From a virus, in the IMG/VR virus record IMGVR_UViG_3300047319_001490, positions 1 to 39,422 of that record: a stretch of 39,422 nt of DNA. One strand, written 5' to 3'. Positions 7,693 to 32,807 of the stretch are shown in pieces. A program made the translations under genes and the position numbers. Numbering within the stretch: the stretch's first letter is position 1; every line of letters starts with the position of its first letter. The notes beneath the pieces were generated by a model. It had not been told where the DNA came from, made no database searches, and saw only the letters and a program-made list of their open reading frames with translations.

Positions 7693-8115
7693 CTACAGCG
7701 TGAACAGACCTGAAACGTTGAACACGCAGGTGACGTCGGCACCGTTCGGCACCACAGGCAGCCCGGTGCCCGTGTCCACCCAGGCAATCAGCCGCTGCGC
7801 CGAGGCCGCCACGTCAGCCCCGCCGGTCACTGCCGAGCTCTGGAAGTAGAGCAACGAGTGACCGCTGGCATTGGCGGCCGGCGCGGTAAACACGATGTCC
7901 GCCGCGTCCGCGGTCCCGCTCGTGCCCGTCTTGGACGCGAGAGCCCCCGAGGTAGCGTGTAACACACCGCTGGCGCCGGTCACGTCGCTGACGAACTTGT
8001 GGGCCGCGTTGAACGTGTACGACCGCACCAGCGCGACCTTCTGGGTCGCCGTATCCCAGTCGATCTCGCCCAGCAAAAATCCTTCGCGGCCCGGATTGAA
8101 CAGCGCGTTCGCCAT
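7693..8115 (-). CDS. Phage structural protein (MANAL-type, 140 aa)
   Basis: A 140-aa protein with the pattern of a widespread phage structural family. It starts MANALFNPGREGFLLGEIDW, continues with KVALVRSYTFNAAHKFVSDV, then ADAADIVFTA and RLIAWVDTGTGLPVVPNG. Family members are usually annotated only as phage structural or hypothetical proteins and occur near head and tail genes, as here. The family resemblance is from memory of the motif order. The molecular role (decoration or tail accessory) is unknown. Confidence 0.7.
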   Translation of the reverse strand: MANALFNPGREGFLLGEIDWDTATQKVALVRSYTFNAAHKFVSDVTGASGVLHATSGALASKTGTSGTADAADIVFTAPAANASGHSLLYFQSSAVTGGADVAASAQRLIAWVDTGTGLPVVPNGADVTCVFNVSGLFTL

Positions 8116-8125
8116 GAAAGGGCGC

Positions 8126-8458
8126 CTACGCCACTCGGTACCAGAGTTGGCTGGAGGCGTCCCACCAGAACTCGCTGGCCCGCAACCCTGGAATGACCGT
8201 GGTCACCCCGTCGGCGCAGAACGACGTTCCGGCGGCGGCCATGGTGATGGTCGACGCGGCCAGCCCCGTGTTCATGACCACGCAGCGCTGACCGGGGATC
8301 GTCCCCTTCGCCAGGATCACGCCCGTGATCGCCGCCGCGGGAATCAGCCGTATCACGTCCACGCTGGTGTCGACCGTGCCACCGGTGGCGAGAGCGACCG
8401 CCCCCGCGTTCACCTCGGGCAAACGCCCCGCCTCCCCCGTTACGGAATTTTTCGGCAT
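8126..8458 (-). CDS. Small beta-rich structural protein (110 aa)
   Basis: A 110-aa protein, ATG start at 8456-8458. It contains alternating hydrophobic strands (VIRLIPAAAITGVILAKG, QRCVVMNTGLAASTITMAA) and ends SEFWWDASSQLWYRVA, like small receptor- or capsid-associated jellyroll subunits. The next gene upstream ends immediately before it. The family is not recognised; a structural role is inferred from the neighbourhood. Confidence 0.55.
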   Translation of the reverse strand: MPKNSVTGEAGRLPEVNAGAVALATGGTVDTSVDVIRLIPAAAITGVILAKGTIPGQRCVVMNTGLAASTITMAAAGTSFCADGVTTVIPGLRASEFWWDASSQLWYRVA

Positions 8459-8701
8459 TCAGTTCCTCTCTGGTGACCGACCACCCACGTGGACGTACTG
8501 TTCGCCCAGCAGTGGATCGGCCTCAATCAGGCGTTTCAAACACACGGCCACGTGCCGCATCTCGGCCTGCAGCGCATCCCCCACGAGCACGTGCGGCAAC
8601 CCTTCGGCATACGCGTCCAGGCACCGTACGCACATCTGCTCGAGCTTCAGGCTCAGAAAACCTGGGCAGGTGCAGGTGTACTCGGCGACGGGTGGCGTCA
8701 C
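8459..8701 (-). CDS. Small Cys-containing protein (80 aa)
   Basis: An 80-aa protein whose GTG start (8699-8701) overlaps the stop of the preceding gene as GTGA, so it is probably translationally coupled. The N-terminal third has a C-x-C ... C-x2-C arrangement (Cys 10, 12, 24, 27), a possible single zinc site. The rest is helical (DALQAEMRHVAVCLKRLIEAD). Function is unknown. Confidence 0.6.
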   Translation of the reverse strand: MTPPVAEYTCTCPGFLSLKLEQMCVRCLDAYAEGLPHVLVGDALQAEMRHVAVCLKRLIEADPLLGEQYVHVGGRSPERN

Positions 8702-8832
8702 TTCTTCTTGTTCGCCTGACGCTGCACGTCGAGCGCGATCGCCACCGCCTGCTTCTGCGGGCGCCCAGCCTTGATCTCAGCCTTGATGTTCTGGCTGACC
8801 GCGGCCTTGCTGGCAGACTTTTTGAGCGGCAT
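8698..8832 (-). CDS. Short basic phage protein (DUF6496-like, 44 aa)
   Basis: A 44-aa basic protein from ATG 8830-8832 to TGA 8698-8700. The pattern MPLKKSASKAAVSQNIKAEI, then GRPQKQAVAIAL, then a Lys-rich tail, matches the short phage protein family I know as DUF6496, in which a Lys/Ser N-terminus, a PQKQAVAIAL core and a KKK tail recur. It sits among head genes here, as family members often do. Its biochemical role is not established. Confidence 0.7.
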   Translation of the reverse strand: MPLKKSASKAAVSQNIKAEIKAGRPQKQAVAIALDVQRQANKKK

Positions 8833-8835
8833 CGT

Positions 8836-9255
8836 TCAGCCTTGCCGGCCGCGCGCTACTGACGGCGTGCCGACACCCGCGCGCAAGGCATCGAGCAACG
8901 CGGCCGGGATATCTCGGGAATTGGCGTACACCGGCCCCTCCGGGAACTCGTAGCCAGCAAACGCCTCGACGACCTCGAGCGTGTCCACGTCGACGAGGGT
9001 GCCGTTGGCGGGATAGACCATGCCGTCGCCCCACAGGCCGATCGCGTCGGCCTGCCGGCCGTGCAGGGCAAAGCCCTCGGTGTACAGCCGCGAGGCGACG
9101 TACCGCTGCTGCAGATCGGCCGGGGTCGCGTGCAACGCCGACACTTCGACGTCAGGGTCAGGGCGCAGCTCTTTCGTCGCCGTCGCCGTTGCCGTCCTCG
9201 TCGCCGCCTCGGGCTTTTCCGGCGCGGCGTGTTGGGGTTCTGAATGTTCGGCCAT
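8836..9255 (-). CDS. Hypothetical head-region protein (139 aa)
   Basis: A 139-aa protein, ATG start at 9253-9255 with an AAGGAG site about 10 bases upstream. The first ~35 residues are low-complexity Ala/Thr/Glu. The remainder is more ordered (QQRYVASRLYTEGFALHGRQ, GTLVDVDTLEVVEAF). No family is recognised. The position, two genes after the major capsid gene, suggests a head or connector accessory protein. Confidence 0.55.
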   Translation of the reverse strand: MAEHSEPQHAAPEKPEAATRTATATATKELRPDPDVEVSALHATPADLQQRYVASRLYTEGFALHGRQADAIGLWGDGMVYPANGTLVDVDTLEVVEAFAGYEFPEGPVYANSRDIPAALLDALRAGVGTPSVARGRQG

Positions 9256-9273
9256 GATGAGAAAACTCCTTGA

Positions 9274-9744
9274 TCAACCCAGACGGGCGGCTATGACGTC
9301 GAACGTCAGGGGCTTCTGTTTCTGTTGTGCTTTCCAGGGGTTCTGGGTGTAGGCGTACAACGCCGCGATGCTCTGGGGCACGCTGGTCTGTTCGCCCACC
9401 GGTACGCAGAGCTGCACCCCGTTGACCTGAAAGATGTGCGGCGGGAACTCCGCCGGCAGGCCCCGCGCTGCCAGCGCGGACGCCGCGCGGCGGTCGTTTT
9501 CATCGGGGCTGATGGTCATCTCGACGCGCGGCTCGCTCGCCCACGCGGCCAGGATGCGGTCGCGTTCGGTTTCCTTTGGCTCGAGGGGTTGCGGCGGCGG
9601 AGGTGGCGCGACCACCGAGGTGTCGCGGGCAGCCAGCACCGCGGATACCAGGGTGGTGAGACCCTGGATCTGCTGACGCATCGCGTCCATCTCGAGGTCG
9701 CGCGGGTCGGACATCTGGTCCGACGGCTGTTCGTCTTTCGGCAT
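9274..9744 (-). CDS. Hypothetical protein next to capsid gene (156 aa)
   Basis: A 156-aa protein starting at ATG 9742-9744, six bases after the capsid stop. The N-terminal part is a short helix (EMDAMRQQIQGLTTLVSAVL), followed by a proline run (APPPPPQPL) and then a compact domain. That domain includes RVEMTISPDENDRRAA, HIFQVNGVQLCVPVGEQTSV and PQSIAALYAY. The latter segments resemble a short beta domain plus helix seen in uncharacterised phage proteins beside N4-gp56-type capsids. The function is unknown. Confidence 0.6.
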   Translation of the reverse strand: MPKDEQPSDQMSDPRDLEMDAMRQQIQGLTTLVSAVLAARDTSVVAPPPPPQPLEPKETERDRILAAWASEPRVEMTISPDENDRRAASALAARGLPAEFPPHIFQVNGVQLCVPVGEQTSVPQSIAALYAYTQNPWKAQQKQKPLTFDVIAARLG

Positions 9745-9750
9745 GGCCGT

Positions 9751-10707
9751 TTACGGGCTGACAGATGTTTCGATGCGGATAACGCGCAGAGCGTCGAGCA
9801 CCTTGGCCACGAACACCACGCTCCAGCCCACGTACGCCCGCTGGTGCAGCGGGTCGCTCTTGCTGGGCACGTCGAGCCCGGTGGTGAACACCTGGACCCC
9901 CTTGTTCGTCTCGTCGTTGATCGAGCCCACGCCCATCGATTCGAGGTCGATCACCCCGTACGCATTCGGCCCGTAGATCACCGCGGCATGCACCGGGATG
10001 CCCGCCGCGCCACCCGTCGGGTAGATCGGCAGATCGGTGGTTTCACGTACCAGCGCGCCGTACACCTCGCCAACCTCGTTGGCCATCATCGGGCGCGTAT
10101 TGGTGTACCGGTAAATGTCCTGCCAGGCTGGATCCGTGACCAGGTCATATTTTTGACTGGGCGTCACCGCCGCGTGATAAAAGCCGTCGCTGAATTTCGG
10201 GACGTTCTGGTTTTCCAGATCCCTGACTGCCAGACGGATCAGGGCCACGGTCATGTTCATGCCCACGGCCACCGTGATGCGGCTGACGGCGGCGCCGCCG
10301 TAGCGCACCGTCGAGCCCGCGCCCAGTTCGTTGACCACCAATCGGTGGACCGTCTGGCCCGCCTGCTCGCCCAACTGCTCGACGGCCTGGACGACGCTGT
10401 CGTCGATGCCTGCCGTCTCGAGCACGTCGGAGACGGTGAGAAAGTCGCCGTACTGGGCAGCGGTGGCCGTGACCGCGGTGACCACCTGGGAGTTGCCCGC
10501 GGGCGTGACACCCTCGGACAGTGGCGTGGTGGCCAGCGACAACACACCGTATTTTCTGAAGTTGGCCACCAGGCCCATGTGTTTGGGGATGGTGACTTTC
10601 TGGCCGTCGCCAATCAGGGGCAGGTACGGCAGAAGCCGTTTGATGAGCACGCCGACGTAGAACGTGCGCTGTTCAGCGGTAAGCGTTCCGTAGGTGGATG
10701 TAGCCAT
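9751..10707 (-). CDS. Major capsid protein, N4-gp56 family
   Basis: A 318-aa protein with ATG start at 10705-10707. The N-terminal third carries the family signature: FRKYGVLSLATTPLSEGVTP at residues 50-69, then QYGDFLTVSDVLETAGID near 85-102. It continues with the helix QAGQTVHRLVVNELGAGS. These features are those of the N4-gp56 family of HK97-fold capsid proteins. The scaffold candidate lies immediately upstream and small head proteins downstream, the expected order. It would form the icosahedral shell. Length fits the shorter members of the family. Confidence 0.9.
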   Translation of the reverse strand: MATSTYGTLTAEQRTFYVGVLIKRLLPYLPLIGDGQKVTIPKHMGLVANFRKYGVLSLATTPLSEGVTPAGNSQVVTAVTATAAQYGDFLTVSDVLETAGIDDSVVQAVEQLGEQAGQTVHRLVVNELGAGSTVRYGGAAVSRITVAVGMNMTVALIRLAVRDLENQNVPKFSDGFYHAAVTPSQKYDLVTDPAWQDIYRYTNTRPMMANEVGEVYGALVRETTDLPIYPTGGAAGIPVHAAVIYGPNAYGVIDLESMGVGSINDETNKGVQVFTTGLDVPSKSDPLHQRAYVGWSVVFVAKVLDALRVIRIETSVSP

Positions 10708-10720
10708 TTACGACAATCTT

Positions 10721-11608
10721 TCAGTGGGTGGCGAGGTCGCGGAACCCGCCCTGGCGGGCGCGGCTAATGGCTTCCTCGGTCGGCAGGCCGTCACTGCCCA
10801 GCCACCCCGCCAGTACGCCGGAGCCGTTCACGGAACGACCCCCGCCACTCGCCGGTTGCTGGCCGTTCGCGGCCCGGTTGGTTTTCAGAGACTGCACCTC
10901 GGCCTCGAGCGCGGCGATCCGTTCCTTGTGTTCCGCCGTCGCCGCCTTATAGGCCACGTCATGCATCAACTTCAGCTTCTCCCCCGGTGTCTGGGCATTG
11001 AGCAGCCTTTGATGGCTATCCGCGTCCATGCCGTCGAGGGTTCGGAGCGATGCCAGATCCTGGTTGAATTGCTGCTGGTGCGCCCGTTCCGCCAGGTCGG
11101 CTATCGGCGCCACCATCCTGCGCCACTGGCGCGCGAGGTCGACCCGCTGCTTGGCTTCCCAGTCGCCGGCCTCGGCCTGCATCCTGAGTTGCTCGAGCTG
11201 CGCGTCGGGCAGCACCAGGTCGACGAACTGCCGCAGGGCGTGGGCATACTGCGCCTCACGCTGCTGGTGCTGTCCCTCGAGGGTGCGCGCCTTTTCTTCG
11301 GCCGCGGTCAGTTGGGCGCGGATGCGCTCGAACCGGCCGCCGGGCTTGGGCTTGTCGGCGGTATCGCTGGGATCTGAGGGTCCGTCGTCAGTGGCTTCCG
11401 GCGCGTCACCCTGCACGGGGTCGGCGGGTCGGCCTTGCGGCGGTGGGGTGCGGTCCACACCTTGCACAGGTGCGGCTGATCCAGCCTTGATCTCGGCCAT
11501 ACGCACGTCGAGGTCAGCCATCGACGTAATCGGTCCCGTCGATGGAGACGGGGCCGATTCGGTCGGGGCTGGTGCCGGGGGTGCGCTTGGGGCTGGACCT
11601 TCGGCCAT
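10721..11608 (-). CDS. Capsid scaffolding protein candidate
   Basis: A 295-aa protein from ATG 11606-11608, with an AGGGA site upstream; a TTG at 11644 is the less likely longer start. The first ~100 residues are disordered, Pro/Ala/Ser-rich and acidic. Then comes a long coiled-coil stretch (QLTAAEEKARTLEGQHQQRE, ERIAALEAEVQSLK) and a Gly/Ser-rich tail. It sits directly upstream of the major capsid gene. Disordered N-terminus, coiled coil and position are typical of scaffold proteins. No protease domain is seen, so maturation protease activity would have to come from elsewhere or be unnecessary. Confidence 0.7.
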   Translation of the reverse strand: MAEGPAPSAPPAPAPTESAPSPSTGPITSMADLDVRMAEIKAGSAAPVQGVDRTPPPQGRPADPVQGDAPEATDDGPSDPSDTADKPKPGGRFERIRAQLTAAEEKARTLEGQHQQREAQYAHALRQFVDLVLPDAQLEQLRMQAEAGDWEAKQRVDLARQWRRMVAPIADLAERAHQQQFNQDLASLRTLDGMDADSHQRLLNAQTPGEKLKLMHDVAYKAATAEHKERIAALEAEVQSLKTNRAANGQQPASGGGRSVNGSGVLAGWLGSDGLPTEEAISRARQGGFRDLATH

Positions 11609-11642
11609 GCTTGGTCCCTGAGCCACAGTCAGCGAGTGAAAC

Positions 11643-11672
11643 AAAAAAGGCCCAGACCTAACGGTCGGGGCC
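11643..11672 (-). terminator. Intrinsic terminator upstream of scaffold gene
   Basis: Read on the minus strand, the arms GGCCCCGACC and GGTCTGGGCC form a GC-rich stem with a GTTA loop, followed directly by TTTTTT. It lies between the 188-aa gene and the scaffold gene, all leftward, so it would end or attenuate transcription from the ParB-like unit into the capsid genes. Confidence 0.8.
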
Positions 11673-11751
11673 TCGCTGGCTAACTTGCGTCAGCGGCTGG
11701 GGTGACTACACGGTATCACACGGGTACAAATTCGCCCGCATGCCCCTCGGG

Positions 11752-12318
11752 TTATTGCTGCTGCGGGTGAGCCTCAACAAAACGCTTGATGACGGCGTAG
11801 TCCGCCACACGCAAGGTCGGCATATCGCCAGCGTGGTGGGTCGGTATCCACTCCGAGTCGATCTCTGCGACACGCGCGCGCCAGATACGCAGCAAGTCCA
11901 TCAGTGCGACGTGTTTGCGCGTGACTGAGCCGTCGAAGTCGTGCTGCTCATCGGTAAAGGCTGCCTTAGGCTTGCGTAATGCTGCGAAGTGGCCATCGGG
12001 TCGCTTGAGCGCCGAGCCCACCGCGGTCATATTGCTCAAGCTCTTGTACACCACAAATCGCACCGCACTCGCACGAGCCTTCGGGGTATCGACTACACTT
12101 GCTGCGACTCCAGCAAGTGTAGTCGCACGTGGCACCCGCTCTCGGTTGTAGCGTCGCCAGGCATAGCCCGCGGGAACGCGCGGGCTCACCTTCTCCAGTA
12201 TCTCATCGAACGTCAGGCCAGCCTGACCGGCCTGATCGAGCTCGTACCAGATTTGCATGGTGACGCTCGTGGCCCCAGCCGTATCACGGCCAGTGCCACG
12301 GACGCTTTCGCGCTTCAC
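11752..12318 (-). CDS. Hypothetical protein coupled to ParB-like gene (188 aa)
   Basis: A 188-aa basic, mainly helical protein. GTG 12316-12318 overlaps the ParB-like stop (GTGA); ATG 12258 (MQIWYELDQAG) is an alternative start. The segment GLTFDEILEKVSPRVPAG followed by AWRRYNRERVPRA looks like a winged-helix DNA-binding fold, as in phage helicase/primase-adjacent regulatory proteins. The C-terminal half (VALMDLLRIWRARVAEIDSE) is helical. Coupling suggests it works with the ParB-like protein. The exact role is unknown, and the winged-helix reading is tentative. Confidence 0.6.
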   Translation of the reverse strand: MKRESVRGTGRDTAGATSVTMQIWYELDQAGQAGLTFDEILEKVSPRVPAGYAWRRYNRERVPRATTLAGVAASVVDTPKARASAVRFVVYKSLSNMTAVGSALKRPDGHFAALRKPKAAFTDEQHDFDGSVTRKHVALMDLLRIWRARVAEIDSEWIPTHHAGDMPTLRVADYAVIKRFVEAHPQQQ

Positions 12319-13286
12319 GCGGTGACGAGTTCACGAGCTGGCTGATACAACTCGAGCATCCGTACGCTGAGTTGGGCCACCTGCTGCCACTGCTGGCTGC
12401 GCTCCTCGCGCTTGTCTTCACGCGGGTCGAACAACGCCTCCGGGTCAGCACTCAACTTCACGAGCGCGCTGATGTGCATCCCTACCTGGCGCACGGTGCC
12501 AGAGATGGAGACTTCACGGTCGCGCGGCGGGGGTCCGACCGAACTGTACTCACGCCTGGCCTGCACGATCGCCGAGATCGCATCGGCGTCTGATGGTGCC
12601 GCGTTGACCTGTTTGAGCAGATCGGTGATGGTCTTCTTGGCCGGGACCGCCTGGGCGACGAACTCGACGAACTCCCCGAATACGGGGTCGTGCTTGACCG
12701 AGTTCAGGCGAGCACGATTGTCCATGCTGATGCGATCGCGCTCGTTCTCGAGATGTAGTTTCAGGGTGCGCTCGGCGAACTCGAGTTGATTGCGAATACG
12801 CCGTACCTGCTCGGGTGATCGGCCGATCTCTCGCGCGATCGCCTCGTCTGCGAAATGCATGTCCATGAGCAGCTTCGCCGCATCGACGGCCTCTTCGGCC
12901 GATAGTCGCTTGCCGCCCATGTTGTTGATGGCGCCCGCCAACGACTTGGCCATCGGCACGCTCGGGAAGTTAATCAGATACGCGGCGATGGTTTTCTTGT
13001 GCAGTTTCCTGGCTGCACCAAGCCGCGTATTGCCATCGATCAAGGTATCCGGCGCCATCAGGATGACTGGCGGGAATGCAGCACCCGCCGCCATCTGCTG
13101 GCGGTACTCCTCGATCTCATCCTGGGGTGCGACGTGGTTCGCGCTGCGGACCTGAGCCCAGTCGGCAACGCGCAGTTGATCGATGGGAAAAGCGGGCTCG
13201 AGCCGATACTCGAGGTGCCACTCCTGAAACTTGGCCTCGTAGCGCGAGTCGCCGAGGAACAACGGTTGCGTGGTAGGTTCTGCCAC
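12315..13286 (-). CDS. ParB-like nuclease/CTPase-fold DNA-binding protein
   Basis: A 323-aa protein, GTG start at 13284-13286; an AAAGGAG purine run and a nearer AGG precede it. Residues ~34-105 form a ParB/sulfiredoxin-fold domain: FPIDQLRV, then FPPVILMAPDTLIDGNTRLG, the DGNxR variant of the ParB nucleotide-binding loop. Residues ~125-172 carry an HTH (LSAEEAVDAAKLL, AIAREIGRSPEQVRRIRNQL). The C-terminal ~150 residues are helical and end in a likely coiled coil. No ParA partner is present. Unusually, it lies inside the late operon between the 1900-aa virion gene and the scaffold. It could act in plasmid-prophage partition, in DNA packaging/ejection, or as a transcription regulator. Confidence 0.8.
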   Translation of the reverse strand: MAEPTTQPLFLGDSRYEAKFQEWHLEYRLEPAFPIDQLRVADWAQVRSANHVAPQDEIEEYRQQMAAGAAFPPVILMAPDTLIDGNTRLGAARKLHKKTIAAYLINFPSVPMAKSLAGAINNMGGKRLSAEEAVDAAKLLMDMHFADEAIAREIGRSPEQVRRIRNQLEFAERTLKLHLENERDRISMDNRARLNSVKHDPVFGEFVEFVAQAVPAKKTITDLLKQVNAAPSDADAISAIVQARREYSSVGPPPRDREVSISGTVRQVGMHISALVKLSADPEALFDPREDKREERSQQWQQVAQLSVRMLELYQPARELVTA

Positions 13287-13323
13287 GGGTTACCTGATCT
13301 CCTTTACAGATCGGGTGGCCTAG

Positions 13324-13356
13324 GGAGAGCCGCGAGGTCTCATCTCGCGGCTCTCC
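13324..13356. repeat. Perfect 13-bp stem inverted repeat
   Basis: Arms GGAGAGCCGCGAG (13324-13336) and CTCGCGGCTCTCC (13344-13356) flank a 7-base loop. No T-run follows on either strand, so it is not a standard intrinsic terminator. On the minus strand it would fold in the 5' leader of the ParB-like mRNA. Confidence 0.85.
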
Positions 13357-13484
13357 TGCCACTCAACGAAGAGTGTATCGCGCCACTGCGCAGTGCCGTC
13401 AACGCTGGGTTGACGCCACGTTGAGTTTCCGTGGCCTAGGTGCGCCAGTGCCAACACGGCCTGCAAAATTCTCGCAAAGCGCTA

Positions 13485-13501
13485 TCGCTGAAACTCAGCG
13501 A
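13485..13501. repeat. 7-bp arm palindrome, operator-like
   Basis: TCGCTGA and TCAGCGA are separated by AAC. It lies 27 bases from the larger palindrome at 13529 and could be a second protein-binding site. Confidence 0.6.
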
Positions 13502-13528
13502 AATCAGACACAACCCGAGCCGATCCAG

Positions 13529-13549
13529 GTTTGGGAGATTCTCCCAAAC
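13529..13549. repeat. Perfect 10-bp arm palindrome, parS/operator candidate
   Basis: Arms GTTTGGGAGA and TCTCCCAAAC surround a single T, giving 21 bp of dyad symmetry with no mismatch. It lies about 240 bp upstream of the ParB-like start codon. It is unlike the chromosomal parS consensus but has the form expected for a dimeric HTH protein. Confidence 0.75.
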
Positions 13550-13635
13550 CACGCACCCTTAACCGTTTCGTAACCCGACGCGAGAACGAAACACACCCCC
13601 ATTTTTCGGAGCGCGGCGTATAACCACGCTCACCC

Positions 13636-13815
13636 ATGAACCTCTCCTACTCGGACACCCTGTATGCCATCGTCGGGTTTGGCACGATGGCCCTCGGCCT
13701 GTGGGCGCTGTCCCGCCACCCGGTCATGCAGGATCTGCGCGGATGGGTGAGGTCGAAACTGCCGCATGACGACGGCTCCAGCTGGGCAACGCACTACTTC
13801 GGCCGACCACGCTAA
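13636..13815 (+). CDS. Small single-TM protein on the opposite strand
   Basis: A 59-aa frame on the plus strand, against all its neighbours. Residues ~9-26 (LYAIVGFGTMALGLWALS) form one likely membrane segment, followed by a basic/polar tail. A TATAAC hexamer at 13619-13624 ends 11 bases before ATG 13636, so the mRNA would be nearly leaderless, and no clear ribosome-binding site is seen. Its TAA overlaps the TAG of the convergent 1900-aa gene. It may be a real small membrane protein with its own promoter, but the support is moderate. Confidence 0.45.
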   Translation: MNLSYSDTLYAIVGFGTMALGLWALSRHPVMQDLRGWVRSKLPHDDGSSWATHYFGRPR

Positions 13816-16800
13816 GCCGCCGGTAACGCTTTCGGCGGTGTCAGCAGTCTGATCCGCCCCTCGGCCATCCTGGCCTGACGATCCGTCGGCGCCATCGCCG
13901 CGTACACCTGAGCCTCGGCATAATCTCGTGCCGCCTGGGTCTGCACCTCAAGCACTTTTTTGCGCGCCTCTGGCGTGCGCCGCTGCCAGTTCGGATCGCT
14001 CACCTGGGCGTTGAGGCGCTGTTGCAACAACTCACCGAACTTCTGCTGGTAGGTGTTCTTTTCCGCTTCGGTCAGCGTCATCGGCGGGCTCAAGCTATTG
14101 GTCAACGGATTCTTGACGCGGATCTCTGACGGTGCGTTGGGGATGCCCATGCCCACATCTCGAAACGCGTTCAGGATCGGCTCGGGCTGGGAGCTGCTGT
14201 ACTTCAGGGGCGAGATGAACGCGCCAGCCCCGGTCTGGTCGCTCTGGATGTCCTGGCCCAACGCGTTCTGCCGCCGCGGCACGTTCTCGGCTACGCCTGG
14301 GATGAGCGCCTCGATCGCTTGAATCGCGCCTTTCGGGTTCCGGTCGGCCTGCCCCAGAGCTCGGGTCATCTGCCGGGCGAACGAGGCGTAGGGCACGAAC
14401 GACGTGGCCAGTTGCTCGGTGACGTTCTCGCTGTACCGCTTGGGGTCCTGTACGGCGTTCATCACCGCGTTGAGCCCCTGCAGGAACGTCTGATCGGTCA
14501 TGAATTTCCCGAGGGACACGGCCAATCGGGTGGGGTCCGACACCGAGCCTTCCTGCTGCGACTGACCAACGACCGCGCCGATGGCCAGCGGGATGGAAAG
14601 CGGGCCAAGTTTGCTCAGGTCGATATAGGTGAAGTTGCCCTGACCATCGGGGATCTTGAGGCTCCAGGGCTGCCAGCCGGTTGGCAGCGTGTCGCGTTCT
14701 TTCGGATCGGCCGGGTACCCGCCGGTGACCAGGCCATGCGCCGCGAGCGCCGCGGTGCCGGCTATCACGCTCGAGCCGAACAGCACCCGCGCGCCCGAGT
14801 CTGCCGCTGCGCCCGTATCACCGGCTCTGATGTGCTGCAGCAGGTCGATCGCCCCCGCCGGCGAGAGTTCCAGCCCCTGGGCCAGGATATTCGCGGGCGT
14901 CTTCGTGAAGGGCACCACCAGCTCACGAATGATGCGGGCCGCCATATTCTTCGGACCAGGCCCGCGGCCGATAGAGCTGAACGCCGACGCCAGGGAATTC
15001 GGCTCCTGCAGCACCGAGTGGGCGGCGGTCTTGTCTGCCTCGGCCATGATGGCCGGATACTCGGGCAGGTTCTGCATGATCTCGTCCATGCGCGCCCGCA
15101 GCGCCTGGCCCGTGTAGCCCTCCTGAATCGCACGCCGCGCCACGATCGCCCTGGTCGCGCCACCACGCGCGGCACCCCTGAAGACCAGGTCCGACGCCTC
15201 GAGCGCACGCAGGGGCATCTCCACCGCCGCGTCGAGCTTGCTGCTGCCCGATTGAAAGCCGCCGCGCACGTTCTCGAGCTTTCCCGCGCTCTGGGGATTG
15301 ACCCCCGTTCGCAATGTCGTCAGGGCCTCGCCGAGTCCCTGCACGGCCCCTTCCGCCATACCCCGTAACTGGGGCGCGATCTCGCCCATGTAGCGCGTGC
15401 GCGGGCCCCCCGTGGCCGCGGCGCGTGCGGCGTCGATGCCGACCGCCAGCGGCTTCAGGCCCACGTCCAGGCCGCCCTGGATGGTGTTGCCCAGGGCATT
15501 CGTCAGATGCGTGGTGGTCGCGCTGAGCATGCTGGCGTAGCGCAACATGCTGATGCGGTCCCACCAACTGACGTGCTGCAAGCTCTGCAGGAACTTCGCC
15601 GCCGCCAGAGGATTGCCCGACTGCTGAGCCGCGACAAACTGTTTCAGCACGTCGTCGGTCACGGCTTTGCCGCCCATCTTCTCGAGCAACCGCCCTGCCT
15701 GCTCGGTCTGGCGCGAGGCAACCCGCGACTGAGCGTCGAACGCTGCCGCGCTGCGCCGGTTGGCCAGGTTCGCGTCCCGCCGAGCATTCTGGGCCTCCGC
15801 GTCGAGCCACGCCACCGGCCCATTCCTCGAACCGGGCTTGTCCACGCCGGCCTGCTTCAACCCCTCGAGCCGCTTGGCGGCATCCGCGGCAGTCCTGTCG
15901 CCCGCCGCCTTGGTGGTCTTGAAATAGCCACGTTCAGCGGCGAGTTCATTGTTCAGCGCGTCCAGCAATTCTTGAGGCGCGCTGGTGTTCTTCAGGGCCT
16001 CGGCCCGTTTGGCTGCCGCCGCTACGCGCTGGGCGTCCCGCGTGGCCAGGTCGGCGCCCTTCTCGTCGATCGACATGGCGTGGTACGCGGCCAGGTCGTC
16101 ATACGCCTTCGCAATCTTGTCCAGGAGCGTGCTGGTCTGCGGGGTGCTGGCCGGCCGGGCGGCGCGTGCCTCGGAGGTGATCCGTTGTGCGGCTCTGACC
16201 GCGTTCGCCTTCTCGGTGGCCAGTTGCGTGTTGTTCGCGGCCAGCTTCTGCGCTCGAGCCAGGCGCGCCTCCGCGGCATCAGCCGCCGCCTTGGCCGCGC
16301 GGGCCTCGTTCCCGCCAGTGATGGCCTGGGCCATCTCCTGGTTGATGACGATCTTCTGCTGGTTCAGCGTCCGCCCAGCCGTCGCCGCGGCGCCACGACC
16401 GACCGCCTGCAAGCGTGCGGCATCCACGATCTGGGCGATGTACTCGGCCTTCTGGGTCGGCGTCAGCGCCTCAACGCCACCTTTCGCGGCGATATCCGCG
16501 GCCATCCGCGCGGCCTGCACTTGCTTCTGGACGACCGCCGCACGCAGCGTCAGCAGCTCTTGGGGGTTGTACGCCTTGCCGATCGGTGATTTCTGGAACT
16601 CGGCGGTGGTCATGCCCAGTTTGGGGGCCAGGTCTTCGACGAGTTGCTGGTGGGTGATCCGCCCCTGGGTGTACGCGTCCATGAGGTTTGGGTTCTCTTC
16701 GGCCACGCGCTGCAGGGAGGCGGCTACCTCGGGCATCTCGGGCGCCAGCTTGGCAATGTTGGGCATACGCGCCACGGTGGCGGCGGATGGCGCAGCGACC

Positions 16801-19514
16801 TCGGCGCCGGCACCGGCTGACCGCACGATGCCCACGTCCTGACCCTGTCGGGCCACGGTGCTGAGCACTTCACCCCGAGGTCCCAGAATCTGGACCGGGC
16901 CAGTCTCACGTGGAACGATCAGCCCACGGTCGAGAGCTTGCTCGACGGGCGATGCCTTCGCACCTGGCGGGACCAGGTGGTCGAGCGCATTGGTCGCCGG
17001 CGCGGGAGTTACGGCCGGGGTTGTGGCTTCGGCTGGGGCTGGGGTTGGGACTGCGCCGGGTTCTGCTGCTCGAATCGGCGCTGTCGGTCCAGTGCCGCCT
17101 GGTGCAGTCGCCGGATTCGGGCCTGCGCTGCTCGGATTCGTTCCCGCGGCGTCATCGGGGGCAGTGTACGGCCGGACCGGTGCGGACACGGTAGGCGCAG
17201 CGGCGGCATCTTGCGCGAGCACGTCCTCCGCCCATGGCTTGTGTGGGACGTCCTCTGGCGCGGTCGAGGCGACAATGCGCTGGGCTTCGGCGATCACCGC
17301 GGGCGGAGCTTTGGAAGCGGTGACGTCTGCCACGGCACCGGCCGGTCGGCCAAGCCCCAGCAGACCGGCGCCACCCTCGAGCGTGCGACCGGCCATCTGG
17401 GCGGCCTGTTCCTCGAGCGGGGCGATCTTGTTACCCAGGGCATCCACGGCTTCCTTACCGCCGCCTAGCTCCATGCCACCGATGAGCATCACCATGTTGC
17501 CGGCGCGCTCCCGGTCCTCGGGTGTGAACCGATCGTCAGGGATGGTGGTGCCGTACTTGGCCATCAGGTCGCGCGAGATGGCCGTGTAGCTCTCGCCACC
17601 CGTGAGCGCCCTCAATGCCACCGCGGGCAGGCTCGGATCGTTCTGAATGTTCGAACTGACCGCATTGCCGACCGTGTTGATGGCGTTGAGAGCCAGGTTG
17701 CCCGCCCCGCTCACGATGGGGATGCCTGGAGGCACTGGTCCCTCGGTGGCGCCGGGCGTCGACGGTACCGTGCTGCGGTCAGCCGGCGGCACCGTGCTGA
17801 GGGTGGGGTTCGTCAGACTGTCTGACGGTGTAGGCTGCTGAGCGGCGGCCAGTGGCTGCGGACCCAGCGCAGTGTGGACGGCTGAGCCGACGCTACTGGC
17901 CGCGTTCCCCACGGTCTGGCCAATACCGCCCGCGATGTTGCCCGCCTGTCTGAGGGCTTCGCCAAACGGATTACTGATGGTCTCGTCGGTCTGCGGGGTG
18001 ACGCCAGCCACCAGGTTGGCCTTGGTCATCCACTGGGAGGCTTGCTGGGCAGGACCAGGCTGAGACGGCTGGGCGGGGGCAGCCACGCTGGGCGTGGCAC
18101 TGGTGGGGTTGTCGGCGTACAGTGCCGCACGGACGGCACCCATGCCCACGCCACCGATCTGGGCGGCGCTCATCCACTGGCTGCCCTGGCGCAAGTCGGT
18201 GCCGCTGGTGCCCACGTTGAACTCGAGTCCGTTCTGTCCCTGGCGGACGCCACTGACGTAGAAATAGTGACCGGGCGTGTCGAGGATGACGGGGTTGCCG
18301 TTGGCGGCGTCGGCGGCCACGTGGTTCCAGTCGACGGTGCTTTCGAGCTTGGTGGGGATGCCCATTTTGCCGAGCAACTGCTGCTCGGACGACACGCCGG
18401 CCATGCCCGAATCGGCGGTCCAGCCCACGCTGCTGGCCAACTGCATCGCCTCGTTGGGCGTGGGATACCGTCCGTACGTGTTGGCGAACGCGATCGCGGC
18501 GGCCGGGCCACACGCGGCGTACGCGGCCTGGGCACTCAACCCCAGGCCGAACTGCGAGGTCCGCGCGGCCGGGCCACTACCCAGCGGGTTGGTCAATGCG
18601 TCTGACGGCGTGGGGGCCAGGTTCGCCGGTCGGCCGCCGATCCCATCCATGGGACCAATGCCCACGCGTGCGGCGCCGTGGAACGGCCCCCAGCCCGATT
18701 TCGTCACGTTGCTCAGGGCGTAGTCGATGGCGGCAGCCGCGTTGTTGGGGTCGCGGGCGTCCAAACCCGTGGCCGCGGTGAACGCGTCCCCCAGGCCACT
18801 CACGGCGTTACCACCGCTGGCCACATCGCCGTAGTGCAACTGGAACGGCCCGAAGCTCGAGCCCGAGTCACCAGGTCGGGCGCCTTCGGACAGGCCGCCT
18901 TCGCTCATGGCCACGCGTACGGCCGTGTCGGGATCGATGCCGTAGCGGGCGGCGCTGTCGCGCACGATGCTTTCCAGATCGCCGCCGCTGGCCTGGTTGG
19001 CTTGCGTCTGGATGGGATTCGTCAGCGTGTCGCTGCCCGTGGGCGCCGACCAGGTGGGCGTGGGCGGTGGAGGTGCTTGCGGTTGGGTGATGCCCTGGAG
19101 TTGGCGGAACGCTTCCCCGAAGGGGTTGCTGATCGTCTCGTCGGGCGAGGGTGGCGCTGGGGCGATCGGCTGCTGGGTTGGTGGTGGCGCACCGGGAAAG
19201 ACCAGGGGCGCGGTGACGGGTGGTGGGGCTGAGGACGCTACAGGAGGAGGCTGGGACGCGTCAGTACTGGGCGTGCCCTCTGGAACGGTGCCGACTAAAG
19301 GGGCAGGTTGCGGCGCCGCCTGCATCGGTTGGGTGAGGCTGTCGCTCGAGGTGGGCACGTCCAGGGCTGGCGGGGGTGGCACGGGGATAGGCTGCAGGTT
19401 GGCCACCTGTTGCGCCTGCCACGCGTCGGCCACGGCAGCATTGGCCTTCTGTGCCCACTGGTCGGCCTGGAAACCGTTCAGTTGATCGGGCGTCAGGGCG
19501 AAGTTGACCGGCAT
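13812..19514 (-). CDS. Giant internal virion (ejection) protein with transglycosylase-like and C39-like peptidase domains
   Basis: A 1900-aa protein, ATG 19512-19514. Residues 1-170 are Pro-rich linker. Residues ~175-290 are a transglycosylase/lysozyme-like domain with Glu205 in VAMSEGGLSEG and SSFGPFQLH. Residues ~320-465 are a C39-like peptidase with Cys335 (YAACGPAAAI), His416 (DTPGHYFYVSG) and a following Asn/Asp. A linker motif (S/T)D-x-(L/I)-(T/S)-(N/Q)P recurs six times between residues 57 and ~570. The middle is long coiled coil. The C-terminal ~650 residues include RELVVPFTKTPANILAQGLE and hydrophobic segments, resembling the large polyvalent protein domain LPD38. It likely travels in the capsid, is ejected, opens the wall and helps form the DNA channel. 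Confidence 0.75.
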   Translation of the reverse strand: MPVNFALTPDQLNGFQADQWAQKANAAVADAWQAQQVANLQPIPVPPPPALDVPTSSDSLTQPMQAAPQPAPLVGTVPEGTPSTDASQPPPVASSAPPPVTAPLVFPGAPPPTQQPIAPAPPSPDETISNPFGEAFRQLQGITQPQAPPPPTPTWSAPTGSDTLTNPIQTQANQASGGDLESIVRDSAARYGIDPDTAVRVAMSEGGLSEGARPGDSGSSFGPFQLHYGDVASGGNAVSGLGDAFTAATGLDARDPNNAAAAIDYALSNVTKSGWGPFHGAARVGIGPMDGIGGRPANLAPTPSDALTNPLGSGPAARTSQFGLGLSAQAAYAACGPAAAIAFANTYGRYPTPNEAMQLASSVGWTADSGMAGVSSEQQLLGKMGIPTKLESTVDWNHVAADAANGNPVILDTPGHYFYVSGVRQGQNGLEFNVGTSGTDLRQGSQWMSAAQIGGVGMGAVRAALYADNPTSATPSVAAPAQPSQPGPAQQASQWMTKANLVAGVTPQTDETISNPFGEALRQAGNIAGGIGQTVGNAASSVGSAVHTALGPQPLAAAQQPTPSDSLTNPTLSTVPPADRSTVPSTPGATEGPVPPGIPIVSGAGNLALNAINTVGNAVSSNIQNDPSLPAVALRALTGGESYTAISRDLMAKYGTTIPDDRFTPEDRERAGNMVMLIGGMELGGGKEAVDALGNKIAPLEEQAAQMAGRTLEGGAGLLGLGRPAGAVADVTASKAPPAVIAEAQRIVASTAPEDVPHKPWAEDVLAQDAAAAPTVSAPVRPYTAPDDAAGTNPSSAGPNPATAPGGTGPTAPIRAAEPGAVPTPAPAEATTPAVTPAPATNALDHLVPPGAKASPVEQALDRGLIVPRETGPVQILGPRGEVLSTVARQGQDVGIVRSAGAGAEVAAPSAATVARMPNIAKLAPEMPEVAASLQRVAEENPNLMDAYTQGRITHQQLVEDLAPKLGMTTAEFQKSPIGKAYNPQELLTLRAAVVQKQVQAARMAADIAAKGGVEALTPTQKAEYIAQIVDAARLQAVGRGAAATAGRTLNQQKIVINQEMAQAITGGNEARAAKAAADAAEARLARAQKLAANNTQLATEKANAVRAAQRITSEARAARPASTPQTSTLLDKIAKAYDDLAAYHAMSIDEKGADLATRDAQRVAAAAKRAEALKNTSAPQELLDALNNELAAERGYFKTTKAAGDRTAADAAKRLEGLKQAGVDKPGSRNGPVAWLDAEAQNARRDANLANRRSAAAFDAQSRVASRQTEQAGRLLEKMGGKAVTDDVLKQFVAAQQSGNPLAAAKFLQSLQHVSWWDRISMLRYASMLSATTTHLTNALGNTIQGGLDVGLKPLAVGIDAARAAATGGPRTRYMGEIAPQLRGMAEGAVQGLGEALTTLRTGVNPQSAGKLENVRGGFQSGSSKLDAAVEMPLRALEASDLVFRGAARGGATRAIVARRAIQEGYTGQALRARMDEIMQNLPEYPAIMAEADKTAAHSVLQEPNSLASAFSSIGRGPGPKNMAARIIRELVVPFTKTPANILAQGLELSPAGAIDLLQHIRAGDTGAAADSGARVLFGSSVIAGTAALAAHGLVTGGYPADPKERDTLPTGWQPWSLKIPDGQGNFTYIDLSKLGPLSIPLAIGAVVGQSQQEGSVSDPTRLAVSLGKFMTDQTFLQGLNAVMNAVQDPKRYSENVTEQLATSFVPYASFARQMTRALGQADRNPKGAIQAIEALIPGVAENVPRRQNALGQDIQSDQTGAGAFISPLKYSSSQPEPILNAFRDVGMGIPNAPSEIRVKNPLTNSLSPPMTLTEAEKNTYQQKFGELLQQRLNAQVSDPNWQRRTPEARKKVLEVQTQAARDYAEAQVYAAMAPTDRQARMAEGRIRLLTPPKALPAA

Positions 19515-19517
19515 CGG

Positions 19518-21125
19518 CTAGACCCCGCCGCTGCCCTGACCAACCCCTGACGATGCGTACTGCTTCAGCCAGTCATCGGGGCTGTACCCGAGTTTGGTAC
19601 CGCCGGCCTTGAAGATCGCCAGTTCGGAGGGAGTCATTCGTTCAATAGACCCCGCTGCCAGTTGAGACGGCCCGCGCTGAAAGATGCTGCCGATCTGCGA
19701 CAGCGCCTGGTCGGTGTTGTAACCAGGGCTGCTCGTATCCGTGGCCCCGGTCAGACCACCCGCCAGTGAGCCCATGGTCACCGGTGTGGCCGTCTGAGAG
19801 CCAACACCGTTGAACGAGGGCAACTGGGTATTACTGGCCAGTGCCCCCAGAAATGACGGCATCTGACCTGTGGATTGGGCACCTCTCAGGAAATCCGCGG
19901 CGTTGAAGACGTTGGACGGTCCGCCCAGGCTGGCCGCGGTTGTCAGGTAATTCAAGCCCTGGGTCGAGTTGAACTGGGCCTGTTGCTGGGCAAGGTTACG
20001 AGAGAACTCGCTGGCGGCCTCGGTGGGGGCGCCGTTGTACATGCCGCTCAGGTTGGCCTGCTGGAGAGCGCCAGCCAGGGTCTGGGTGCCGAGCGGGGTC
20101 GTCGTGCCGTTGGGCACCACCGACGACCCACCGGACGCCAGGGGCACGCTGGGGGCTGCCGTAGCGGGTGCGGCCGCTGGTGGCGGGGCGGTGAACGAGA
20201 TGCCCTGAGGCATGCCGTAGGCCACGTTGCCTGACTGGGCGTAGCCCTGGGCAAACTCCGATTGCGCCGTCTGCGCCGCCTGGGTGGCGCCCATGCCGTT
20301 GGCTTGCAACTGCGGGATACGCGCGGCGAGCCACTGCGCGGAGGTGGGCGCTTGCCAGGTGCTCGCAGGTGCGGCTACCGCGGCCTGGGCTGGTGCCGTG
20401 AAACTGATGCCTTGCGGTAGGCCGTACGCGACGTTGCCGCTCTGGGCGTAACCCTGGCTCCATTCGGACTGGGCGGTCTGCTGGGCCTGCACGGCCCCCA
20501 TCCCCTGACCCTGAAGTTGCTGCGTCCTGGCCTGGATGTACTGGGCCTGCGTCGACGGCGTGAACGCCCCGCCCGCGGTACCCGATACCGCGGCCGCTCC
20601 GCCGCCGACGGGCTGACCGTACTGCATCTGCTGCACCGCGCTGCCGGTGGGGGTGATGTCGGGGGCGTTGTAGTAGCCCGTCAGCCCGGCCACGGTGGCC
20701 GCGTTGGCCTGGGCCTGGGTCTGCTGCGCCAGTGCCAACTGGGCACGGAACTGCTCGTCCTCGAGCGCTTGCGACCGCTGGGCGATCTCTAATGTCGGCA
20801 GACCCTGCTGCTGCCACATCAATTGCTGCTGCGCCAATGTGGCATTGAATTGCCGCGCTGACTCGGCCAGGGCTTCACGCGTGGTGCCGGCGCTCTGCTG
20901 CGCGGCATTGATGACAGCCTGTTGCTGAGCAGGCGTGCCTGGTAGCCCTGGATCGTACGCACCCCCGCCCGTGCTCTGACCGACTGCGCCACCACCGCCC
21001 CCGCCCGTGCCACCGTCGGGACTCACGCCGAACGTGCCCATGGCAGGCGTCCAGCCCTTGGCAAGCGCGTCAGCCGTCGAACTGACTTCCATCGAGCCAC
21101 CGTTGGGATTGGGGACTAAGACCAT
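19518..21125 (-). CDS. Gln/Ala-rich internal virion protein with tandem repeat
   Basis: A 535-aa protein, ATG 21123-21125 with GGAGG upstream. After a Gly-rich linker (TGGGGGGAVGQSTGGG) comes a Gln-rich helix (residues ~65-145, QQQLMWQQQGLPTLEIAQ). Then two ~55-residue near-copies follow at 191-245 and 261-314, sharing TAQSE and QGYAQSGNVAYG. The C-terminal part is Ser/Thr/Gly-rich, ending ELAIFKAGGTKLGYSPDDWL. Low complexity, size and position between the 589- and 1900-aa genes suggest an ejection protein packaged in the capsid, comparable in role to T7 internal core proteins. No sequence family is recognised. Confidence 0.6.
   Translation of the reverse strand: MVLVPNPNGGSMEVSSTADALAKGWTPAMGTFGVSPDGGTGGGGGGAVGQSTGGGAYDPGLPGTPAQQQAVINAAQQSAGTTREALAESARQFNATLAQQQLMWQQQGLPTLEIAQRSQALEDEQFRAQLALAQQTQAQANAATVAGLTGYYNAPDITPTGSAVQQMQYGQPVGGGAAAVSGTAGGAFTPSTQAQYIQARTQQLQGQGMGAVQAQQTAQSEWSQGYAQSGNVAYGLPQGISFTAPAQAAVAAPASTWQAPTSAQWLAARIPQLQANGMGATQAAQTAQSEFAQGYAQSGNVAYGMPQGISFTAPPPAAAPATAAPSVPLASGGSSVVPNGTTTPLGTQTLAGALQQANLSGMYNGAPTEAASEFSRNLAQQQAQFNSTQGLNYLTTAASLGGPSNVFNAADFLRGAQSTGQMPSFLGALASNTQLPSFNGVGSQTATPVTMGSLAGGLTGATDTSSPGYNTDQALSQIGSIFQRGPSQLAAGSIERMTPSELAIFKAGGTKLGYSPDDWLKQYASSGVGQGSGGV
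20184..20345 (-). repeat. Tandem coding repeat, copy B
   Basis: Second copy of the ~55-residue unit, residues 261-314. It shares QGYAQSGNVAYG-x-PQGISFTAP with copy A, and the DNA is also clearly related. Confidence 0.8.
20391..20555 (-). repeat. Tandem coding repeat, copy A
   Basis: First copy, residues 191-245, separated from copy B by a short Ala/Pro-rich linker. Substitutions (Leu/Met, Trp/Phe) are conservative, so the repeat is under protein-level constraint. Confidence 0.8.
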
Positions 21126-28912: not shown

Positions 28913-29861
28913 CACTCCGGCGCAGATTGGGGCCGTCCACCGTCAGAAACACGGTGTCCTCCTCGAAGCGGCGCATGGTGCGTGCGCCGAGGTGCATGCC
29001 CAGGTGCATGTGGTCGAGGTTGGTGGTGACGATGGTTTTGCGCTGGTGGTCGTGGCGATCGTCGAGCACCTGGAACAGCATGGAGGTGGCCCAGTCGGTG
29101 TCTTTGTCGGCGCCGACGTCGTCGAGCACCAGGTAGTCCACGGTGCGGAGGCTGTCGAGCACGGTGGCTTCGGTGGTGGTGGCGTCTTTGGCGTAGGTGG
29201 CCTTGATGCGGGCGAGCAAGTCGGGCGTTTTGACGAACAGGCCGGGGCGGCGCTGGAGCTCGGCGACCTCGCGCAGGGCACTGATGGCGAGGCCGGTCTT
29301 GCCGACGCCGAAGTTACCCATCAGCACGATGGCCCAGCCTGGACTGACCAGCCAGGCACGCAGCGAGGCGATCGTCAGATCGGTGGTGGGTGAGCTGGGG
29401 AACGTGGCGAAGCTGCAGCCTGAAAAACGCTCGGGGATTCTGGCGCCCTCCCAGATGCCCATCAGGCGGACCTCGTGCTGCCAGGTTCTGGACTGCTGGC
29501 GCAGGTCGTCGTCGGCGAGTTTGCGGTTATGGCCGATAACGCAGCCGCAGTACGTGCTGAGCACCAGGGGCACCTCGTCGCCTGGCAGGAGCACGGCGCG
29601 TTCGTCTTTGCCGCCGGCGCCGTAGCACCAGCACCCCGGCGGCAAGGACGTAGCCAGGAGGTCGCGCTCCTGGGCGTCGACGAGCTGGCGTTCGAGGCGG
29701 CGGAGGCGATCGAGGCCGCCAGGGTCATCGAGGGCGACGGTGGCGAGGAGAGCCTGGAGGGTCAGCGTGTGGGGCAGGCGCAGGATGTTCTCGAGCGGCC
29801 AGGTGGCGACGGGCGTACGGTCGGCGGCGGTGGGATGGAGGAGCGCGGTGAGTGAGCGCAT
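28902..29861 (-). CDS. DnaC/IstB-like replicative helicase loader (AAA+ ATPase)
   Basis: A 319-aa protein, ATG 29859-29861 overlapping the upstream stop as ATGA. The N-terminal ~140 residues are helical with Cys78, Cys80, Cys105 and Cys107 that could bind zinc. RIPERFSGCSFATF at 141-154 is the usual lead-in of DnaC-type ATPases. Walker A is GNFGVGKT (182-189), Walker B LVLDDVG (244-250) and sensor 1 TIVTTNL (276-282), with an Arg-finger-like RTMRRF near 294-299. It follows the DnaD-like initiator, the classic phage helicase-loading pair. It would load host DnaB at the phage origin. Confidence 0.88.
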   Translation of the reverse strand: MRSLTALLHPTAADRTPVATWPLENILRLPHTLTLQALLATVALDDPGGLDRLRRLERQLVDAQERDLLATSLPPGCWCYGAGGKDERAVLLPGDEVPLVLSTYCGCVIGHNRKLADDDLRQQSRTWQHEVRLMGIWEGARIPERFSGCSFATFPSSPTTDLTIASLRAWLVSPGWAIVLMGNFGVGKTGLAISALREVAELQRRPGLFVKTPDLLARIKATYAKDATTTEATVLDSLRTVDYLVLDDVGADKDTDWATSMLFQVLDDRHDHQRKTIVTTNLDHMHLGMHLGARTMRRFEEDTVFLTVDGPNLRRSDAA

Positions 29862-32016: not shown

Positions 32017-32807
32017 GAGGCTTCTGGTGTGACCTTTTCTCGTTCCACCGCTACGCGAGAAAAGGTCACAGGCTGGCGGCGCGAAACGCGCATTTGGCAC
32101 CGCCCACTGCACGTCTTGGCGTGACTTCGTCGCGCGTGGAAGTCGCGCCCGCAGCCGTCGCACGTCTGCACGAGGCTGACACCAACAGCGGGACACTGCG
32201 GTCCAGGGTGCGCACAAATCCAGTACGACCAGGCCTTGCGGATGTGCAATTGCCGCCGCCATTTCGGATCGCTGGGACCCGGGCGGCGCATCTTCGGCAC
32301 CATCTCGCACACGGTCCAACCCGCTTCACGGCAGGCAATTACGAAGTCCACCGCCTGGAGGTGCTGCACGCCGCCGTGCGTCTGGTCGGCGATCTTGACC
32401 AGCACGGTGCCAACCTGAGGCTGGAGCACGGCCCGGGCGGCCTGGAGAAAGCCCGGGTACAGATGGTTGATATTCGGCCGTCGCTGCACATCGAGCCCGG
32501 CGGTTCCATAGGCATGCGCCCAGCCCCCGCCAAGCGCGCCCACCCCGCCGTCAGTCTGATGTGGCGGATCCCAGACCACCACCTGAAATTGCCCGGGCTC
32601 GAACAACTCGCCGAGACGGTCCCAGTCGCCGACCACGTCCACGTTGGGCAGTGGCCGGCGGTCAAGCCGCGTCGTCGGCTGGTAGGGACACCCCTGCCAC
32701 ATCCGCCCACCACCGAAGCTCGCATCCAGAATGATCGGCTCGTGGTAGTAGTGCAGTCCGACCAGTTGGCTCACGATCGCCGCGTCGGACGTCGTGCGCG
32801 TGCTCAT
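32013..32807 (-). CDS. DNA methyltransferase with C-terminal zinc finger
   Basis: A 264-aa protein from ATG 32805-32807, ATGA-coupled to the membrane gene. SAM-binding motif I is PIILDASFGGGRMW (about 24-37) and the catalytic motif IV is VVVWDPPH (about 76-83), a DPPY-type motif of N6-adenine or N4-cytosine methyltransferases. GTVLVKIAD and the segment around WTVCEMVPKMRRPGP continue the Rossmann fold. Residues ~216-237 add a Cys4 finger (C-x2-C ... C-x3-C: CDGCGRDF, KTCSGRC). No partner endonuclease is adjacent, so it is probably an orphan, protecting phage DNA from restriction or marking it. Target sequence unknown. Confidence 0.75.
   Translation of the reverse strand: MSTRTTSDAAIVSQLVGLHYYHEPIILDASFGGGRMWQGCPYQPTTRLDRRPLPNVDVVGDWDRLGELFEPGQFQVVVWDPPHQTDGGVGALGGGWAHAYGTAGLDVQRRPNINHLYPGFLQAARAVLQPQVGTVLVKIADQTHGGVQHLQAVDFVIACREAGWTVCEMVPKMRRPGPSDPKWRRQLHIRKAWSYWICAHPGPQCPAVGVSLVQTCDGCGRDFHARRSHAKTCSGRCQMRVSRRQPVTFSRVAVEREKVTPEAS

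Follow-up and report, generated by a model that had tools for sequence, protein, structure and literature searches.

Conserved modules and inverted repeats in a late-region gap between accessory genes of a temperate phage

The gap, its neighbours and its relatives

The window analysed here is the whole of virus record IMGVR_UViG_3300047319_001490 (39,422 bases). Its genes include those for an integrase, a repressor-like HTH protein, a DnaC-like helicase loader, a terminase, a capsid protein and an internal virion protein, which together mark it as a temperate phage; the internal virion protein is podovirus-like. Neither tRNAs nor known RNA families were found in the window. We compared it with seven related IMG/VR records, G001 (loci L004/L098), G002 (L005/L099), G003 (L006/L100), G004 (L007/L011), G005 (L008), G006 (L009/L105) and G007 (L010/L094), of which G001-G003 are fragments and G006 has only 8 kb. 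A ParB-like gene is carried by five of the eight records (the window and G001-G004) and not by the other three (G005-G007). The gap discussed here (13287-13635) lies between this gene and a small open reading frame, and the features in and around it are as follows:

11643-11694, minus strand: leader of the scaffold gene, with a GCAA-loop hairpin (11679-11694) and an intrinsic terminator (stem 11649-11674 plus T tract)
11752-12318, minus strand: ORF188, second gene of the cassette; its start overlaps the ParB-like stop
12090-12125, minus strand: perfect 15-bp inverted repeat in the ORF188 coding sequence
12315-13286, minus strand: ParB-like gene (323 aa, GTG start), first gene of the cassette
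13296-13312, minus strand: ribosome-binding-site hairpin (GATCT/AGATC), holding AAAGGAG at 13299-13305
13324-13356, minus strand: 13-bp leader hairpin, with an outer stem (13315-13319 with 13358-13362)
13362-13367 and 13420-13425: extra half-sites of the CGTCAAC/GTTGACG dyad
13372-13377, minus strand: proposed -10 hexamer TACACT, invariant in 5/5 carriers
13381-13398, no strand: palindrome in the -35/-10 spacer, CGCCACTGCGCAGTGGCG in G002-G004 and with one arm changed in the window and G001
13397-13415, no strand: dyad CGTCAAC-N5-GTTGACG, a candidate operator, with the proposed -35 TTGACG at 13397-13402
13480-13550, no strand: window-only spacer of about 70 bp, with a hairpin (13485-13501) and a palindrome (13528-13550)
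13559-13634, plus strand: right module, with a dyad (13565-13592) and a proposed -10 TATAAC (13619-13624) 11 nt before the ATG
13636-13815, plus strand: ORF of 59 aa, with a single membrane segment apparent by eye, convergent to the gene of the internal virion protein

At the DNA level we found no named relative for this phage group: window positions 11500-19400 and the gap gave 0 matches among 50,697 phage records, and the gap gave none among 72,556 plasmids. At the protein level, the ParB-like protein, ORF188 and the ORF188 homologue of locus L114 had no match in phages, nor did ORF188 in plasmids, and no description matching the gap or the cassette locus was met in the titles and abstract openings of the papers listed. 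Scans of genome contigs with the ParB-like protein and the portal protein, made in search of the host, returned no relative. The capsid protein matched 62 phage records, 29 from Streptomyces and 13 from Bacillus phages among them, all at <60% identity; from these matches we would only guess at a Gram-positive, perhaps actinobacterial, host.

An earlier note on this DNA had described a dense cluster of inverted repeats in the gap. The perfect 13-bp stem (with a 7-nt loop) is there, as are smaller dyads at 13397-13415 (7-bp arms, 5-nt loop), 13485-13501 (7 and 3), 13565-13592 (7 and 14) and 13381-13398 (8 of 9 pairs); the palindrome at 13528-13550 is also present, but its arms are 11 bp around a single base and not 10 bp. 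The arms of at least 6 bp sum to 63 in the gap against a mean of 7.0 (sd 6.8) in dinucleotide shuffles, a sum reached in 0 of 500 of them, and in a 230-bp scan of the whole record the dyad region scores 38, when the maxima of twelve shuffled genomes lie between 15 and 30. The gap is thus dyad-rich relative to shuffled sequence, but it is not, as had been claimed, the densest place in the record, since 12096-12325 inside ORF188 scores 44. That it is the only large gap of the late region hinges on gene calling: in our gene set 8459-8835 is a gap of 377 bp, most of which an 80-aa ORF could fill. It does lie directly upstream of the ParB-like gene; the earlier description left out its far side, where the 59-aa ORF begins on the plus strand.

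Two conserved modules and the genes behind them

When the relatives are aligned, the gap divides into two conserved modules with a variable spacer between them; the window and G004 alone combine the two. The left module begins at about 13436 and reaches down to the GTG at 13286 (about 13287-13436), and it is found in all five ParB-like carriers, at two genomic places. In the late sense it consists of a half-site TCAAC, the CGTCAAC-N5-GTTGACG dyad (half-sites 11 bp apart) with TTGACG inside it, the palindrome in a 19-nt spacer, TACACT, a half-site GTTGAG (in 4/5 carriers), the leader hairpin, the small AAAGGAG hairpin and the GTG; the minus strand carries a promoter-like TTGACG-N19-TACACT whose -35 is overlapped by the dyad. 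Its last 118 nt diverge by 0-7.6% (10 pairs) as against 12-26% at the four-fold sites of the ParB-like gene. Conservation of the individual dyads, one of the checks set by the earlier note, is divided. All carriers (5/5) preserve the leader hairpin, the palindrome of the -35/-10 spacer and the 7/5 dyad, whereas 13485-13501 occurs in the window only and 13528-13550 has a diverged counterpart in two relatives and none in two others. Even the kept dyads are imperfect in places: the leader stem has 13/13 pairs in two carriers and 12/13 in three, the spacer palindrome is imperfect in two, and the 7/5 dyad has one mismatch in G003.

With at most one mismatch, CGTCAAC-N5-GTTGACG is present in 5/5 carriers and 0/3 non-carriers (of which G006 covers only 8 kb). 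The window and G004 have one copy; G001-G003 have a second directly behind ORF188, and the outer arms of this second copy are not the same in G001 as in G002/G003 but stay complementary. Such a distribution is consistent with an operator, to which one of the cassette proteins might bind; the dyad and the gene are linked, and so their co-occurrence is no proof of binding. In IMG/VR the form CGTCAAC-NNGGN-GTTGACG occurs in 46 stretches, where chance hits are expected for 16 fixed bases, and, stretches of the known carriers aside, no newly retrieved one (L116 on) encodes the ParB-like protein. We considered the 13-bp hairpin as a terminator and ruled it out, as it has no T tract, and terminator-like sites in the gap (13592-13615, minus strand) are at chance level for the region (9 found, 7.5 expected).

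The name ParB-like has weak support: the protein matches the profiles phrog_1033 (E 7.8e-9) and TIGR00180 (E 3.3e-5, below cut-off), and its residues 51-181, an HTH-like segment, match a profile of ParB 4umk (E 0.023), against which stands the missing match to PF02195. Its structure model (pLDDT 38.8) was unusable, and structural comparison with it gave nothing reliable. The N-terminal part of ORF188 has a winged-helix-like predicted model; it had no Foldseek match at E 0.001 or better, and VIA-align returned mostly winged-helix proteins with Z up to 7.6, perhaps reflecting no more than a widespread arrangement. A further search for ORF188 homologues found them in 2 of 50 records, both known already.

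In the window and G004 the ParB-like gene and ORF188 lie between the internal virion protein and scaffold genes. In G001 they follow a terminase-like gene and precede a portal-like gene (both named from their translations), and the leader context of G002 and G003 is that of G001, after the terminase. The gene pair and its leader are thus found together at two genomic places and form one unit, which we read as horizontal movement. G005-G007 have neither gene, and in them the right module adjoins the scaffold leader; in G005 the bases that match window positions 11734 and 13528 are only 2 nt apart, an apparent empty site. Two neighbouring observations may be recorded. In G001 (L098 3757-3844) the portal-like gene has a TACACT about 10 nt ahead of its GTG, in the manner of a leaderless promoter, and three GTGTGAC repeats precede this hexamer. 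At the start of the L008 stretch of G005 there is, by eye, an HNH-endonuclease-like frame next to the scaffold gene and on the opposite strand.

The right module is common to the window and G004-G007 (five records). It holds the dyad GTTTCGT-N14-ACGAAAC and a TATAAC that stands 10-11 nt before the ATG across the records, so that any transcript would be nearly leaderless. Its 76 nt diverge by 0-3.9% (10 pairs), compared with 11-33% at four-fold sites of the capsid gene (only a fragment of which is available for G006). The genes behind its ATG differ: a 59-aa gene in the window and G004, an 86-aa and then a 59-aa gene in G007, an 86-aa and then another 59-aa gene in G005, and a 141-aa gene in G006. 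By eye, these small genes appear to encode membrane proteins. The 59-aa ORF has a weak match, below cut-off, to DUF1358, and its differences between the window and G007 number 0, 2 and 7 by codon position, mainly in the third, as expected of coding sequence. No second GTTTCGT/ACGAAAC site was found in the window beyond chance, and a loose search of IMG/VR for this dyad with TATAAC returned only the same four contigs.

Possible roles: control of the cassettes, partition and replication

We think it probable that the gap is a compound control region between two divergent, independently transcribed accessory cassettes in the late operon of this temperate phage. A minus-strand promoter (TTGACG, 19 nt, TACACT) would drive the ParB-like gene and ORF188, the dyads over its -35 and in its spacer would be operator sites, and the 5'-terminal hairpin might shield the leader or tune expression. 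A second, plus-strand promoter, with a GTTTCGT-N14-ACGAAAC dyad to itself, would drive the small membrane-type genes with almost no leader, and each module would recombine as a unit with the gene that it precedes. The modules, their conservation, and the different genes and locations they have in the relatives are observed; the candidate regulators, judged from sequence, would be the ParB-like protein, ORF188 or a host factor. Two results stand against this reading of the gap. A sigma-70 scan of 8000-20000 passed 0 promoter-like sites when 1.2 were expected, because it does not cover a 19-nt spacer and a clear -35 is lacking in the right module; and two of the prominent dyads, 13485-13501 and 13528-13550, are not conserved as sequence.

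The earlier note had suggested a late-operon control region, and as a control region the gap agrees with that suggestion. It appears to serve the two cassettes and not the late operon, however, because the capsid operon has its own leader at 11643-11694. This leader, beyond the other end of the cassette and shared by G004-G007, is the true control element of the late operon, and it looks like a late antitermination site. Its terminator is present in the window and in G004, G005, G006 and G007, that is, also where there is no cassette, and in the GCAA-loop hairpin one pair is A-T in G004 where the other records shown have G-T. It would be a stretch to make the left-module promoter drive the ParB-like gene, ORF188 and the capsid genes as the control of the whole late operon, and we hold this quite unlikely: the left module does face the capsid genes and is strongly conserved, but G005-G007 have the same capsid order without it, and a hairpin and terminator lie between ORF188 and the scaffold gene, so read-through would need antitermination.

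Two other functions proposed by the earlier note, a centromere-like site and a second origin, fare badly. If the ParB-like protein bound the gap as a parS-like centromere for partition of an extrachromosomal prophage, dyads immediately ahead of a ParB-like gene whose product has an HTH-like segment, and a CGTCAAC-N5-GTTGACG dyad restricted to carriers, would be natural. Yet PF13614 found no ParA-type ATPase gene, such as a ParABS system has, in the window (the control was matched in 14/14 genomes), the phage has an integrase, the window and G004 have a single copy of this dyad, no dyad forms a repeated array, and the ParB-like gene itself is absent from three related records; we regard a centromere as very unlikely. 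A replication origin is more improbable still. The gap is non-coding and rich in dyads, and its AT content is somewhat above that of the sequence around it (the 100 bp at 13465 have 49% AT and share places 4-7 among the ten AT-richest windows listed), but it has no iteron family, the cumulative GC skew reaches its minimum at 16559 in the window and at other places in G004 and G007, 15 kb separate the gap from the helicase loader gene, and the gap is a composite of two modules that are found apart in relatives.

The arrangement that we favour, cassettes with a control module each, resembles known systems in part. Morons are accessory genes that phages carry within their late operons, equipped with a promoter and a terminator of their own. 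As with morons (cf. the available part of PMC7067206), these are extra late-region genes of a temperate phage that are absent from close relatives at the same place, in cassettes with their own promoter-like modules, one on the opposite strand; they differ in that the promoter is only predicted, in the unusual content of a ParB-like pair at two genomic sites, and in that no significant cassette-specific terminator was found, 11649-11674 belonging to the scaffold leader. The PeSL cassettes of T4-like phages, as given in the portion of PMC4503421 that we could consult, have a conserved promoter and stem-loop bordering genes that differ, and a conserved promoter-like element with a stem-loop at the border of differing genes is what we see here. 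Ours is a 39-kb phage that is not T4-like, its 13-bp stem is without a T tract, and each module has a single copy per genome; the T4-type early promoter, terminator stem-loop and many copies of PeSL are not found. Moron-like and PeSL-like are therefore descriptions of how the region works, not proven memberships. Solo ParB-like genes occur in phage late or terminase regions (PMC5512222 and PMC9302106, in their accessible text), and the gene of the window is likewise solo, near virion genes or the terminase and without ParA; an HTH-like segment sets its protein apart from those phage proteins as they are presented there, and nuclease/NTPase activity is only putative. Read in this way, the dyad cluster resolves into parts that can be tested, namely two proposed promoters, a pair of candidate operators and the border of a cassette.

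Turnover of the hairpins and the repeats of ORF188

The spacer 13480-13550 (about 70 bp) is missing from G004 and had no convincing match elsewhere among the sequences compared. A related palindrome stands at the same border in G004 and G005; relative to G005, the palindrome 13528-13550 has two adjacent bases changed in both arms and has gained one more matched pair, and 13462-13476 is a decayed copy of the palindrome form of the relatives. In the leader hairpin 13324-13356 the loop is inverted in the window, with 1-2 mismatches of 7 after inversion and 4-6 before it, against 4/4 relatives. Loop inversions and multi-base compensatory changes are described as template-switching footprints (PMC8794818, in the part seen), and since the inverted loop and the matched arm changes are like those footprints, the perfection of the dyads may be partly mutational.

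Similar turnover is seen inside ORF188. Perfect inverted repeats lie in its coding sequence at one variable stretch of codons, immediately ahead of those for DT, and are 15 bp long in the window, 17 bp in G003 and G004, and 17 bp in G001 with matched changes in both arms; the distant L114 gene has an 11-bp repeat at the same stretch and a 12-bp repeat at another place (no ParB-like match was found in the part of L114 searched). G002 has no repeat >10 bp, and L115 holds only a partial gene. A perfect repeat is thus present in 5/6 full-length homologues, with unrelated sequences in three lineages. Synonymous-codon shuffles reached the longest repeat in 0/500 cases for each of the window, G001, G003, G004 and L114, in 15/500 for G002 and in 178/500 for L115, and four other genes of the window were unremarkable in the same test (12, 37, 66 and 99 of 100). 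The eight records together have 17 perfect repeats with arms of at least 12 bp, of which 11 lie in the cassette or directly after ORF188 and none in the three cassette-free records; the carriers share ancestry, so these 11 are not 11 independent events. The ORF188 repeats look like the product of template switching, of selection on hairpins, or of both.

It is conceivable, if unlikely, that the perfect dyads are largely a template-switching by-product of replication and not functional sites. The inverted hairpin loop of the window against all four relatives, the block change in both palindrome arms against G005, the turnover of the ORF188 repeats and the published footprints of the same kind (PMC8794818, as far as consulted) all speak for it, but the stem, the 7/5 dyad and the right-module dyad are far better kept than four-fold sites, which is unlike what a mutational by-product predicts. 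The two readings do not exclude each other, and template switching is compatible with control of the cassettes by the gap. We would put rather less weight on a hairpin-rich mobile cassette in which the ParB-like protein (HTH) and ORF188 (winged-helix-like) would regulate from CGTCAAC-N5-GTTGACG sites at the cassette ends, and in which the leader and ORF188 repeats would be functional structures that persist although their sequence turns over.

The nearest case that we found is in nematomorph mitochondria, for which PMC6649704 (in the text available) describes perfect palindromes in coding sequence, some with shared midpoints and different sequence, and proposes template switching. ORF188 shares with them perfect inverted repeats in coding sequence that differ in sequence at a common position; compared with what is given there, its arms are much shorter (11-17 bp) and lie in one phage gene, at a protein stretch that is variable and not conserved. 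The ORF188 coding repeats are a small test case, provided by nature, for whether selection or template switching in phage replication keeps hairpins in place.

Inverted repeats of this size also occur elsewhere in these genomes. G004 (29296-29448) and L099 (7058-7226) have a second hairpin-rich stretch, with closely similar perfect inverted repeats of 13-17 bp, which is not seen in the window at arms of at least 12 bp. The window has a perfect 15-bp inverted repeat with a 13-nt loop at 32028-32070, in the 3' part of a DNA methyltransferase-like gene.
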